A stretch of 38,258 nucleotides of DNA from Betaproteobacteria bacterium (GTDB lineage Bacteria; Pseudomonadota; Gammaproteobacteria; Burkholderiales; Rhodocyclaceae). The stretch lies in contig VGHJ01000021.1 in assembly GCA_016868295.1 (NCBI GenBank), positions 1 through 38,258 of the forward strand, read 5' to 3'. Under the pieces are notes generated by a model. It was not told the origin of the DNA. It searched no databases and was given only the letters and a program-made list of their open reading frames with translations. Each line of letters begins with the position of its first letter. Position 1 is the stretch's first letter. The position numbers and the translations under genes were made by a program. Shown here piece by piece: positions 8,792 through 32,700 of the stretch.

Positions 8792-9393
8792 ATGTCTCTG
8801 TTTGCCAATGCGGTTTTCGAGATCTCTGCGGAGAAACTGAGCGACCTGCCGCCGCCGACCGGCGCCGAGATCGTCTTTGCCGGCCGCTCCAATGCCGGCA
8901 AGTCGAGCGCCATCAATACACTCGCCGGGCAGACGCGCCTCGCCTTCGTCAGCAAGACACCGGGGCGCACGCAGCTCATCAATTTCTTCCGCTTGCGCAA
9001 CGGCGCTTTTCTGGTGGACCTGCCCGGCTACGGTTACGCCGACGTGCCGGAGAAGGTGCGGCGTCACTGGCAGAGCGTGCTGGCGGCCTATTTGGCGCGG
9101 CGCACGAGCATCTGTGGCCTGGTGATGATCATGGATGCCCGCCGGCCATTGACTGACCTCGACCGGCAGATGCTCGAGTGGTTCGGGCCGACCGGCAAGC
9201 CGATTCACATCCTGCTGACGAAAGCCGACAAGCTGACCCGCAACGAAGCCGCCAATGCCCTGCGTGCCACGCGTACGGAAATGGCGCCATGGTCGGATCA
9301 GGTCAGCGCGCAGTTGTTCTCAAGCTTGAAAAAAACGGGCGTCGATGAGGCGGAGTCCGTCATCGGCGCTTGGTTGGAGCATGAAAAAAGAAA

Positions 9394-9406
<13 letters not shown>
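8792..9406 (+). CDS. engB: Ribosome biogenesis GTPase EngB (YihA/YsxC)
   Basis: 204-residue essential small GTPase that assists large-subunit maturation. G1 is GRSNAGKS (31-38), a conserved KTPGRTQ switch I contains G2, G3 is DLPGYG (76-81) and G4 is TKAD (143-146). The C-terminal [11 protein letters not shown] corresponds to the G5 region. The open frame extends upstream through the intergenic region. ATG8792 was chosen because [13 protein letters not shown] is the usual N-terminal form and the length then matches the family. The 3' end of the gene forms one arm of a long GC hairpin that continues into the hemB leader. Confidence 0.95.
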
Positions 9407-10575
<1,169 letters not shown>

Positions 10576-29193: not shown

Positions 29194-29814
29194 ATGATCG
29201 ACAAGGCGATCATCGAGTTCGACAAGGCGCTTCGGGCGGTCTTTGTTCGGGGAACTGGCGCGCGTCCCGTTCCCGGCTTGGGGCTGCCTGACGCCGCTCT
29301 GACGGAGCGGGAAAAGCGCCATGCCGCGGCCCTGATGCGGGTGAATCACTGCGGGGAGATATGCGCCCAGGCCCTGTACCAGGGTCAGGCGATTTCCTCA
29401 TCGAACCCCGTCATCCGTCAAAGCCTCAGGCAGGCCGCGGCGGAAGAGGGCGACCATCTTGCCTGGACCGAATGCCGCTTGACGGAGTTGGGGGGGCGCA
29501 AGAGTTTCCTCAACCCCTTATGGTATGGGGGCGCCTTGGCCATCGGCATCATCGCCGGAAGGGCCGGCGACATGTGGAATCTCGGTTTTCTCGCCGAAAC
29601 GGAACGTCAGGTCGAGGCGCATTTGCAAGGCCATCTCGCCAGACTGCCGGAGAGCGACCGAAAAACCAGGACGATCGTCGAGGCCATGCAGGCGGACGAA
29701 ATCGCCCATGCCGAGACTGCGATACGGTTGGGTGCGCGGGACCTGCCGGCGGTGGTCAAGCAGGCCATGAGGCTGGCCTCGGGTGTCATGACACGTACCG
29801 CCTACTGGGTTTGA
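29194..29814 (+). CDS. coq7: 2-nonaprenyl-3-methyl-6-methoxy-1,4-benzoquinol hydroxylase
   Basis: 206-residue di-iron hydroxylase of the Coq7/CAT5 family, performing the penultimate O2-dependent hydroxylation of ubiquinone synthesis. Ferritin-like helices carry the iron ligands E55 (MRVNHCGE), E85xxH88 (EEGDH), E137 and E169xxH172 (ADEIAH). A membrane-contact stretch is at about 110-125. The oxygen dependence implies an aerobic or facultative lifestyle. It ends against the convergent osmC; the stops are adjacent (TGATCA at 29812-29817). Confidence 0.93.
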   Translation: MIDKAIIEFDKALRAVFVRGTGARPVPGLGLPDAALTEREKRHAAALMRVNHCGEICAQALYQGQAISSSNPVIRQSLRQAAAEEGDHLAWTECRLTELGGRKSFLNPLWYGGALAIGIIAGRAGDMWNLGFLAETERQVEAHLQGHLARLPESDRKTRTIVEAMQADEIAHAETAIRLGARDLPAVVKQAMRLASGVMTRTAYWV

Positions 29815-30237
29815 TCATGCCTCGACGATCTCCCAGTCGTGCGTGATGTCGGCAGTCTTGCCTAGCATGATGGAGGCCGAGCAATATTTCTCGGCCGAAA
29901 GATGAATGGCACGTTCGACCGCATCCGCCTTCAGGCCTTTGCCGCGCACCGTGAAGTGAAAATGGATCCGGGTAAACACCTTGGGATCGGTTTCCGCCCG
30001 CTCGGCCTGAATGCCGACTTCGCAACCGCTGATTTCCTGGCGGCTTTTCTTCAGGATCAGGACCACGTCATAGGCGGCGCAACCGCCCGCGCCGGCCAGC
30101 AGCAGTTCCATCGGACGCGGCGCGAGGTTGTTGCCCCCTCCCTCCGGCGCGCCGTCCATGACCGCGATATGCCCGCTGCCTGTCCTGGCCGCAAAAGCCA
30201 TCCCATCCACCCCCATCCAGCGCACCGTGCATTCCAT
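29815..30237 (-). CDS. OsmC/Ohr family peroxide-related protein
   Basis: 140-residue OsmC-fold protein. The two redox cysteines of the family are C53 (MELLLAGAGGCAAYD) and C119 (SAEKYCSASIML), which together reduce organic hydroperoxides. The N-terminal Glu/Arg elements (APRPMELLL) are present. It belongs to the YhfA-like OsmC branch, whose substrate is not settled. GGGGGA precedes ATG30237. A TAGAAT (30269-30264, minus strand) may be its -10, but no good -35 was seen. Confidence 0.88.
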   Translation of the reverse strand: MECTVRWMGVDGMAFAARTGSGHIAVMDGAPEGGGNNLAPRPMELLLAGAGGCAAYDVVLILKKSRQEISGCEVGIQAERAETDPKVFTRIHFHFTVRGKGLKADAVERAIHLSAEKYCSASIMLGKTADITHDWEIVEA

Positions 30238-30488
30238 TTGATCCCCCAGATCGATGAAACGCGATTCTATCGGAACGGCGTAGCCTGAATCCCGATCAAT
30301 GCGGCTTGTGCAATGCGGTATGCGTTTGTCGGATTTGATAAATCATGGCGAGTTTTTCCCTCATTGAACGCCTTCCACCATGTTTCAGAACAATACAAAA
30401 AATAATTAATTATCAAGACGATGATATAAATATTCGAGCGCGGCTGATCCTGGCATAAATAAAATTATGTGCGATGCGCAAAAAATTC
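30238..30488. other. AT-rich intergenic region without genes
   Basis: About 250 bases between the osmC start and the small-RNA promoter. It is clearly richer in A/T than the rest of the window, most so at 30390-30490 (runs such as AAAAAATAATTAATTA). It could hold upstream activating or nucleoid-protein binding sequence for the small-RNA promoter and the start region of osmC. No convincing open frame, tRNA or long repeat was seen. Confidence 0.5.
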
Positions 30489-30517
30489 TTGCAATGCACA
30501 AACCGGTTTGTAATAAT
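30489..30517 (+). promoter_or_regulatory. Promoter of the small RNA, with palindromic operator
   Basis: TTGCAA (30489-30494) and TAATAA/AATAAT (30511-30517) with a 16-17 bp spacer. The spacer is filled by a perfect 14-bp palindrome, ACAAACCGGTTTGT (30498-30511). A protein bound there would block RNA polymerase. CAAAC-CG-GTTTG fits the consensus reported for the TetR-type regulator PsrA, (G/C)AAAC-N2-4-GTTTG(G/C). That assignment is a pattern match only. Confidence 0.6.
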
Positions 30518-30523
30518 GAAATT

Positions 30524-30619
30524 GTTCGAGCGTGAAGTCTGGCGCTCAAGATTTTGTCTCCTCCACCCTCCTCCTTTGGTGTGGAATTCGCGCGATCCTC
30601 TTGGATCGCGCTTTTTTTT
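30524..30619 (+). ncRNA. Small RNA with anti-Shine-Dalgarno loop
   Basis: A self-contained unit of about 96 nt: promoter upstream, intrinsic terminator at its end, no open frame with a ribosome site inside. Hairpin 1: GAGCG 30528-30532 with CGCTC 30543-30547. Then a single-stranded stretch with TCTCCTCC. Hairpin 2: TCCAC 30562-30566 with GTGGA 30581-30585, further pairs inside, and a loop around TCCTCCTTT (30569-30577). Hairpin 3 is the terminator. The CCTCCTTT loop copies the anti-SD end of 16S rRNA, so it could pair with ribosome sites of target mRNAs, as C-rich-loop sRNAs do. The transcription start is inferred from the promoter. Confidence 0.62.
30590..30619 (+). terminator. Strong intrinsic terminator of the small RNA
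   Basis: Perfect 9-bp stem GCGCGATCC (30590-30598) with GGATCGCGC (30603-30611), loop TCTT, followed by eight T (30612-30619). No plus-strand protein gene lies between it and coq7, whose end faces osmC, which is why a separate transcript is inferred. Confidence 0.92.
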
Positions 30620-30660
30620 GCCCTTGCCGGGCTATGCCATTGAAGAATGAACTGGCTGAT

Positions 30661-30690
30661 TTGACATGCGAAATCAAACTGCAATACAAT
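30661..30690 (+). promoter_or_regulatory. Promoter of rplM-rpsI
   Basis: TTGACA (30661-30666), 18-bp spacer, TACAAT (30685-30690). The start near 30697 lies in GCGCGG, a GC-rich discriminator as expected for stringently controlled ribosomal genes. Leader about 37 nt to rplM. Confidence 0.8.
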
Positions 30691-30733
30691 GCGCGGCTTT
30701 CCGTATCCAGCAGTGAGTCGTTAAGGGATTCCC

Positions 30734-31162
30734 ATGAGAACGTTTTCCGCCAAGCCGCATGAAGTCAAGCGCGACTGGTTCGTCGTCGATGCGACAGACA
30801 AGGTCCTCGGCCGGCTGGCCACAGAAATTGCGCGCCGTCTGCGCGGCAAGCACAAGCCCGAATACACCCCGCATGTCGATACGGGTGATTTCATCGTCGT
30901 GGTGAACGCGGAGAAGCTGCGCGTGACCGGCGCCAAGGCCGAGCAAAAGGTGTACTACCGCCACTCGGGCTACCCGGGCGGCATATATGAGGACACTTTC
31001 ACCAAGCTGCAAAAGCGCGCGCCGGCGCGCGTGCTGGAAAAGGCGGTGAAGGGCATGCTGCCGAAGGGGCCTCTGGGTTACGCCATGCTCAAGAAACTGA
31101 AGGTTTATGCTGGCGGAAATCATCCGCACACCGCCCAGCAACCCAAATCGCTGGAGATTTAA
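30734..31162 (+). CDS. rplM: 50S ribosomal protein L13
   Basis: 142-residue large-subunit protein, an early assembly protein that binds 23S r[32 protein letters not shown] is the standard N-terminus (two blocks), followed by [18 protein letters not shown], then [10 protein letters not shown]-like [27 protein letters not shown] precedes ATG30734. It lies three bases before rpsI in the universal rplM-rpsI operon. Confidence 0.98.
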
Positions 31163-31165
31163 GGA

Positions 31166-31558
31166 ATGGCTGCGAATTATTATTACGGCACGGGGCGTCG
31201 CAAGACTGCGGTTGCGCGCGTCTTCATGAAGGCGGGTAGCGGCAAGTTCATCGTGAACGACAAACCGCTCGACGAGTTTTTCTCGCGCGAGACCGGCCGC
31301 ATGGTGGTTCGACAGCCGCTGGAACTGACTCAGCATGACAAAACATTCGACATCCTCGTCAATGTGTGCGGCGGCGGCGAATCCGGGCAGGCCGGCGCGG
31401 TCCGCCACGGCATAACCCGCGCCCTGATCGAATACGATGAGACCCTGAAGCCCGTCCTGTCCAAGGCCGGCTTCGTCACGCGCGATGCCCGCGAGGTCGA
31501 GCGAAAGAAAGTCGGCCTGCACAAGGCGCGCCGTCGCAAGCAGTTCTCCAAGCGCTGA
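31166..31558 (+). CDS. rpsI: 30S ribosomal protein S9
   Basis: 130-residue small-subunit protein. [17 protein letters not shown] at the N-terminus, [11 protein letters not shown]-like [20 protein letters not shown] in the middle, and the basic tail [11 protein letters not shown], which reaches the P-site tRNA. The rplM stop and this ATG are separated by three bases (TAAGGA ATG), so the ribosome site overlaps the rplM stop. A terminator follows 21 bases after the stop. Confidence 0.98.
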
Positions 31559-31579
31559 CCGTGCGAGATCGACGACAAG

Positions 31580-31602
31580 AGCCGCCGCAAGGCGGCTTTT
31601 TC
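31580..31602 (+). terminator. Terminator of rplM-rpsI
   Basis: AGCCGCC (31580-31586), loop GCAA, GGCGGCT (31591-31597), then TTTT (31598-31601). Flanking GACGA/TCGTC can extend the stem through the A/T tracts. Confidence 0.88.
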
Positions 31603-31671
31603 GTCTACGGGCGATTCATTGCACCCGCTTGGTTTCGTGATTAACATTCATCGTTGCCTTTGGAGATCCGG

Positions 31672-32700
31672 ATGATCAAGGTCGGCATTGTCGGTGGGAC
31701 TGGATATACCGGCGTCGAACTGCTGAGGTTGCTGGCGCAGCATCCGAACGTCGAACTGCATGCCATCACTTCCCGCGGGGAAGCCGGTACCGCCGTCGCC
31801 GACTTGTTCCCCAGTCTGCGCGGGCGGGTGGCCTTGCGATTCGTCGATCCACAAACAGCCGCCCTGGACAGGTGCGATGTGGTTTTTTTCGCCACCCCCA
31901 ACGGGATTGCCATGGGGCAGGCGCAGGCACTGCTCAAGGCCGGCACGAGAATCGTCGATCTCGCAGCGGATTTTCGCATCCGGGACGTTGCCGAATGGGA
32001 GAAGTGGTATGGGATGAAGCATGCCGCGCCCGACCTGGTCGCTGAAGCGGTCTATGGACTCCCGGAAGTAAACAGAGAAAGCATCCGGCAGGCGCGGCTG
32101 GTGGCAAACCCCGGCTGCTATCCGACAGCTGTCCAGCTTGGTTTACTGCCGCTCGCGGAGTCCGGGCTGGTGGATCTGTCGCACCTGATCGCGGACGCCA
32201 AATCCGGCGTGTCCGGTGCCGGGCGCAAGGCGGAAGTACATACGCTCTTTTCCGAGGCGTCGGACAGTTTCAAGGCCTATGGCGTGCCTGGCCATCGCCA
32301 CTTGCCTGAAATCCGACAGGGGCTTGCCCGTGCAGCCGGCAAGCCGGTCGGATTGACATTCGTACCCCACCTGACGCCCATGGTGCGCGGCATCCATGCC
32401 ACGCTTTACGCACGCATCGAGCGGGAGGCGGACTTCCAGTCCCTGTACGAGACGCGTTACCAGTCCGAGCCATTTGTCGATGTTCTGCCCTTCGGCAGTC
32501 ATCCGGACACCCGGTCGGTGCGTGCAGCCAATGTTTGCAGGATTGCCTTGCACCGGCCCCAGGGGGGAAGTACTTTGGTCGTGCTTTCGATCATCGACAA
32601 CCTGGTCAAGGGGGCTGCCGGGCAGGCCGTTCAGAACATGAACATCATGTTTGGGATCGACGAGTGCGCAGGGCTTACGCAGATACCCGTCTTGCCGTAA
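31672..32700 (+). CDS. argC: N-acetyl-gamma-glutamyl-phosphate reductase
   Basis: 342-residue NADPH-dependent enzyme of arginine synthesis, acting on the product of ArgB. Rossmann [17 protein letters not shown] at residues 5-21, catalytic Cys149 in [20 protein letters not shown] and the conserved His region in [26 protein letters not shown] follows. ATG31672 has TGGAGA upstream; an in-frame ATG 18 bases earlier lacks one. The next gene appears to start inside its last codons. Confidence 0.96.

Follow-up and report, generated by a model that had tools for sequence, protein, structure and literature searches.

Upstream of rplM, the gene for 50S ribosomal protein L13, a small RNA (sRNA) unit lies in a gap between protein genes of the window, i.e. 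the whole stretch of 38,258 nucleotides that was analysed. The preliminary description had proposed a promoter, an RNA of about 96 nt and a 9-bp terminator followed by eight T at this place, and the consensus scan, the fold and the Rfam search all confirmed such a unit. Its features and their context are:

30489..30517, plus strand: promoter-like site of the sRNA, TTGCAA, 17-nt spacer, extended -10 TGT-AATAAT; 9/12 in the consensus scan
30524..30619, plus strand: predicted full-length sRNA, ~96 nt; start inferred, 7 nt past the -10
30528..30547, plus strand: 5' hairpin (SL1) of 6 bp, from the fold; sequence not conserved
30555..30619, plus strand: RF02278 domain with anti-Shine-Dalgarno (anti-SD) strand, anti-SD hairpin and terminator, from Rfam; predicted processed short form
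30556..30564, plus strand: first anti-SD stretch GTCTCCTCC (site 1), from the alignment of 42 sequences
30562..30585, plus strand: middle hairpin with TCCTCCTTT in the loop (site 2), from fold and alignment
30590..30619, plus strand: intrinsic terminator, 9-bp stem and 8 T; perfect stem 30590-30611, helices 2-3 covary
30661..30690, plus strand: separate promoter-like site before rplM (context), TTGACA-18-TACAAT, 11/12
30734..31162, plus strand: rplM, 50S ribosomal protein L13 (context), TIGR01066, 212.3 bits

The region 30523-30619 folds with -37.8 kcal/mol, compared with a mean of -22.26 kcal/mol for 200 dinucleotide shuffles (z -4.84), none of which folded as low. The predicted order is 5' hairpin, weak 4-bp stem, hairpin with TCCTCCTTT in its loop, and terminator; the 5' hairpin at 30528-30547 had been missing from the preliminary description. 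The middle loop consists of exactly TCCTCCTTT (30569-30577), as had been claimed. The upstream stretch TCTCCTCC (30557-30564), described before as single-stranded, is so only in part: its first seven bases are unpaired in the Rfam consensus, while in the fold 30556-30559 belong to the weak 4-bp stem and 30562-30564 to the middle stem. Three promoter-like sites as good as that of the sRNA occur in 29500-32200, compared with 1.0 in shuffles, which taken alone is weak evidence.

Positions 30555-30619 of the plus strand match the Rfam family RF02278, "Betaproteobacteria toxic small RNA", with 59.9 bits at a gathering score of 50. The alignment covers positions 1-64 of the 64 in the model, including the anti-SD hairpin and the terminator, and its E-value of 8.9e-10, obtained with the whole window against 4227 Rfam families, excludes chance for the sRNA. 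RF02278 is among two Rfam matches over the cut-off in the window; at 9387-9478 on the minus strand the anti-hemB sRNA (RF02837) was found with 72 bits (cut-off 49.5). Up to E = 1 the sRNA has four Rfam matches. Membership in NmsRb (RF02877; 33.7 bits, gathering score 52, alignment spanning 30523-30617), mmgR (RF00519; 23 bits, gathering score 41) and SorY (RF02651; 21.4 bits, gathering score 111) was rejected due to these scores. LhrC and CcsR, to which the sRNA had been compared, are absent from the four matches, and Rfam may have no models of them; both serve as analogies. The sRNA upstream of rplM is thus a member of an already catalogued family and a known regulator, with membership and architecture established here, and the earlier view of an undescribed-looking RNA does not hold: a preprint names a homologue in Aromatoleum aromaticum (PMC11722255; statements on the literature, here and below, refer to the excerpts of the cited papers that were at hand). 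A literature search for papers on sRNAs of Rhodocyclales found none.

The source genome has no second RF02278 match at E ≤ 0.001. A sole copy, with a score below that of many relatives, could be a decayed one that has lost its expression. However, core, loop, terminator and extended -10 are all intact, and we regard decay as hardly conceivable.

Among named records, the L13 proteins closest to that of the source genome come mainly from Rhodocyclaceae assemblies, which suggests Rhodocyclales as its order. In the same family, RF02278 was found over the cut-off in 76 of 101 genomes and at E ≤ 0.001 in 96; the corresponding numbers are 94 and 160 of 250 genomes for the order and 3 and 78 of 276 for the class, each count including the source genome. 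The class is Gammaproteobacteria of GTDB, which we take to include the betaproteobacteria. Searches of more than 40 genomes used stricter filters, by which weak matches are lost, and 14 control genomes gave zero matches. One genome of the order search (G281) has nine matches at E ≤ 0.001, and several others have four to eight.

For conservation, 42 distinct strand-corrected sequences were aligned with 14 base pairs and also used to build the covariance model R1. Sequence conservation is established by this alignment: CUCCUCCANCCUCCU is nearly invariant, and 30558-30564 are invariant or at least 90% conserved, while the T at 30557 is variable. Pairing was found in 96.1% of the cells (shuffles 83.5), with 90 two-sided cells (shuffles 24.8) and a covariation score of 0.462 (shuffles 0.212). 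Two-sided changes affect nine pairs (shuffles 6.8), a number reached by 7 of 500 shuffles, whereas the 20 further pair types (shuffles 18.2) were reached by 54 of 500 and count against covariation. Sliding the partners by 1-3 columns reduces pairing to 31-46%, a comparison in which the structure is favoured because it was derived from the same alignment. The two-sided cells fall, with a single exception, within the terminator, the stem of which covaries. Helix 1, the anti-SD hairpin, is paired in 99.0% of its cells and shows almost no variation, so that its evidence is sequence conservation. Conservation as a unit, which the preliminary description had named as a test, thus applies to loop and terminator, while the consensus scan recognises the promoter in a smaller number of sequences: a site of at least 9/12 precedes 33 of 92 core-bearing sequences, among which duplicates are possible, compared with 10.4 in shuffles (sd 2.7, maximum 18; with a fallback to mononucleotide shuffles whenever no dinucleotide walk was possible). 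For the 5' hairpin, fixed 36-nt folds, too short for longer 5' hairpins, gave z ≤ -1.5 against mononucleotide shuffles in 14 of 31 sequences; neither of the same-genus relatives L122 and L139 is among these.

The position beside rplM is also conserved, which this analysis adds to the description of the family. Of at least 588 rplM loci, the 80 best were searched with R1; its 42 matches at E ≤ 0.01 are spread over 40 loci, and in these 40 a match lies upstream of rplM on the strand of rplM. Twenty of the 80 loci contributed sequences to R1 and hence match by construction, the match in L080 is marginal (E 0.008), and L087 and L074 each have a weak second match at another position. With Rfam, 40 of the loci were scanned, and RF02278 was found over the cut-off upstream of rplM on the same strand in 23. 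On the negative side, 35 loci whose upstream sequence reaches 700 b or more have no R1 match at E ≤ 0.01, and five others have less than 700 b. One of the R1-negative loci (L059) retains the CU-rich core with no T run behind it. Within the same family, the RNA precedes rplM by ~91-183 nt in 24 of the 30 best-scoring places. Neither the linkage to rplM nor a gammaproteobacterial branch turned up in a literature search that left out most subscription journals; the word rplM is absent from the excerpts of PMC11722255 and PMC5688073, and that of PMC13104608 holds nothing on the link. As a separate observation, 6S RNA (RF00013, 68.2 bits; L079:2583-2760) precedes rplM in a Neisseria locus that lacks RF02278 over the cut-off, and loci of Cupriavidus, Pandoraea and Burkholderia (L042, L061, L087, L103) have RNase P RNA upstream of the sRNA, its end being ~840-910 nt away.

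In 40 of 80 loci the element precedes rplM in the same orientation, as would be expected of an rplM leader or attenuator with a terminator that governs whether transcription continues into the ribosomal protein operon. However, the terminator is separated from rplM by a promoter-like site (30661-30690) that is stronger than that of the sRNA itself (11/12 vs 9/12), and some genomes carry many copies, such as the nine in G281. In addition, the related Neisseria pair is without rplM within its 3-kb stretch, and ncS27 of Burkholderia cenocepacia is classed among independently transcribed sRNAs (PMC5688073). Due to the separate promoter-like site and the many-copy genomes we reject a leader as highly improbable and consider the RNA as a gene of its own.

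Most matching genomes of the class search (75 of 78) are outside the order of the source genome. The 27 best-scoring of these loci (L004-L030), all below the RF02278 cut-off, were fetched, and 20 were rescanned (all except L011, L020, L023, L025-L027 and L030). The element is ~99-365 nt ahead of a same-strand rplM in 22 of the 27; the fetched stretches of the other five (L011, L015, L018, L025, L030) contain no rplM. Since one rplM is expected per genome, this placing is not due to chance, and we therefore infer that the loci below the cut-off are true relatives. Their core is in most cases CTCCTCCATCCTCCTTTGGTGG. L015 and L018 adjoin an OsmC-like gene, one of which is also found in this window; both also have a glycine riboswitch match below the cut-off (~70 bits vs 110). 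Tandem copies occur outside the order too: L012 and L030 both contain two cores, and three matches lie at G233:C3:217943-218301. At L022:1501-1576 on the minus strand, the element also matches ncS54 (RF02871) below the cut-off (36.2 vs 43 bits).

R1 contains no sequence of the genus Neisseria; it does hold Pseudogulbenkiania (L074) and Andreprevotia (L102), which presumably belong to the same order as Neisseria. In a Neisseria genome R1 finds two tandem places, both of which Rfam assigns to NmsRb (78.5 and 104.5 bits), with RF02278 scoring 35.6 and 31.8 bits, below its cut-off. The recovery of this pair by a Neisseria-free model supports shared descent and suggests that RF02278, NcS27, S17 and NmsR are one old lineage under several names. 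We think it rather probable that they are branches of one anti-SD lineage whose ancestral home was just upstream of rplM before betaproteobacteria and other Gammaproteobacteria (in the GTDB sense) split, that further copies arose from this home, and that a wide gammaproteobacterial branch has gone unnoticed behind the betaproteobacterial name and the Rfam cut-off. For this window, the result is the annotation of a known regulator. If the common lineage is true, the place beside rplM and the relatives beyond the betaproteobacteria unite separately named RNAs, and shared ancestral targets become testable.

We consider it very probable that the locus is a stand-alone sRNA gene of the RF02278/NcS27/S17 type with its own promoter and terminator, the product of which is processed and represses selected mRNAs at their ribosome binding sites (RBS). 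For the related RNAs NcS27, S17 and NmsRA/B, pairing with the RBS has been shown or predicted (PMC5688073, PMC5362039, PMC9973317, PMC10987360, PMC11722255), and it is from these relatives that expression, processing, Hfq use, mRNA repression and a metabolic role are proposed here. The transcript would be started by its own promoter and ended by its own terminator and, as for NcS27 and S17, probably cut near 30555, which would leave ~65 nt. Its CU-rich strand and loop would then base-pair, probably assisted by Hfq, with selected mRNAs at their purine-rich ribosome binding sites and thereby block translation, so that catabolism and transport would be lowered as growth slows. The hfq gene is present in the source genome (E 6.4e-30), and neisserial siblings are reported as Hfq binders (PMC9973317). 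The earlier interpretation of a stand-alone sRNA with C/U-rich stretches that copy the 16S 3' end holds in this respect, as in relatives for which binding to ribosome sites has been shown or predicted; its novelty does not.

The loop that copies the 16S 3' end could also act globally: as a mimic of the 16S anti-SD it would titrate Shine-Dalgarno sequences, and all translation would slow. The family is indeed named after toxicity in E. coli, where growth inhibition was reported (PMC4603805, PMC5688073). On the other hand, defined targets are known: S17 of Bordetella pertussis directly represses BP2158, as supported by compensatory mutations (PMC11722255), and the NmsRs act directly on six TCA-cycle enzymes (PMC5362039). 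Furthermore, exponential growth of E. coli is not impaired by S17 (PMC11722255), so "toxic" may not be general, and whether overexpressed NcS27 slows growth depends on the substrate (PMC10987360). A global action is thus very unlikely, and repression of selected mRNAs is the preferred reading.

Candidate targets were predicted from complementarity. The 10-nt loop complement AAAGGAGGAG occurs at four places in the genome compared with 16 for the reversed control, a rarity that argues against many perfect targets; one of the places is the antisense of the sRNA itself, and of the other three only one has a start codon 20 nt or less away. Nine places, vs two in the reversed control, carry AAAGGAGG with an ATG 4-10 nt behind it, which reflects Shine-Dalgarno use and not targeting; six of the nine have frames of at least 190 codons in the fetched stretch and three have frames of only 22-75. 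Products were named by family search for three of the nine places, and for the nine duplex energies there is no background to compare with. In L150, a predicted target encoding a phenylglyoxylate dehydrogenase gamma subunit (NF045762), the RBS is covered by a 12-nt stretch perfectly complementary to 30568-30579, and paaK (L151; TIGR02155) and a TRAP DctP solute-binding gene (L148) have complements of 9 and 10 nt. As predictions from sequence, aromatic catabolism and transport would fit the reported role of NcS27. Counting against them, the matches, for which there is no proper background, are indistinguishable from ideal Shine-Dalgarno sequences.

Compared with NcS27 of B. cenocepacia, one of four RF02278 RNAs in that species (PMC4603805, PMC5688073), the sRNA is of similar length (~96 nt vs 92 nt) and design, with two core hairpins, CU-rich unpaired stretches and a 5' part that is lost, here by prediction, on processing (PMC5688073); in NcS27 the CU-rich stretches are predicted to cover ribosome sites (PMC4603805, PMC5688073). 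Overexpression of ncS27 attenuates growth and silencing raises it (PMC5688073); a review links NcS27 to metabolism shutdown on nutrient deprivation and to genes of phenylalanine and tyrosine catabolism (PMC10987360). The position is also shared. As here, RF02278 precedes rplM in two loci of Burkholderia (L087 and L103), and for strain J2315 the position is taken from papers, in which ncS27 sits between BCAL3348a, which adjoins it, and BCAL3349 (PMC4603805), with BCAL3348 given as a ribosomal protein gene (PMC5688073). In contrast, the Burkholderia copies are ~650 nt from rplM, and Burkholderia genomes have three to five homologues each (PMC5688073) vs one here; Herbaspirillum seropedicae has four RF02278 RNAs (PMC7011215). 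For S17, 27 nt are reported as 100% conserved in species that include A. aromaticum of the Rhodocyclales (PMC11722255, preprint). S17 adjoins coq7, which here lies near the sRNA at 29194-29814, and is processed by RNase E; its long form of ~190 nt has a possible 32-residue ORF, and it is abundant in virulence mode (PMC11722255). NmsRA and NmsRB of Neisseria (RF02877; NgncR_162/163), the structural similarity of which to RF02278 RNAs was already noted in PMC5688073, carry two anti-SD stretches as the sRNA does, and the gonococcal siblings block the RBS via the single strand of SL2 and SSR1 (PMC9973317). They form a tandem without rplM in their stretch, whereas the RNA described here is a single copy beside rplM.
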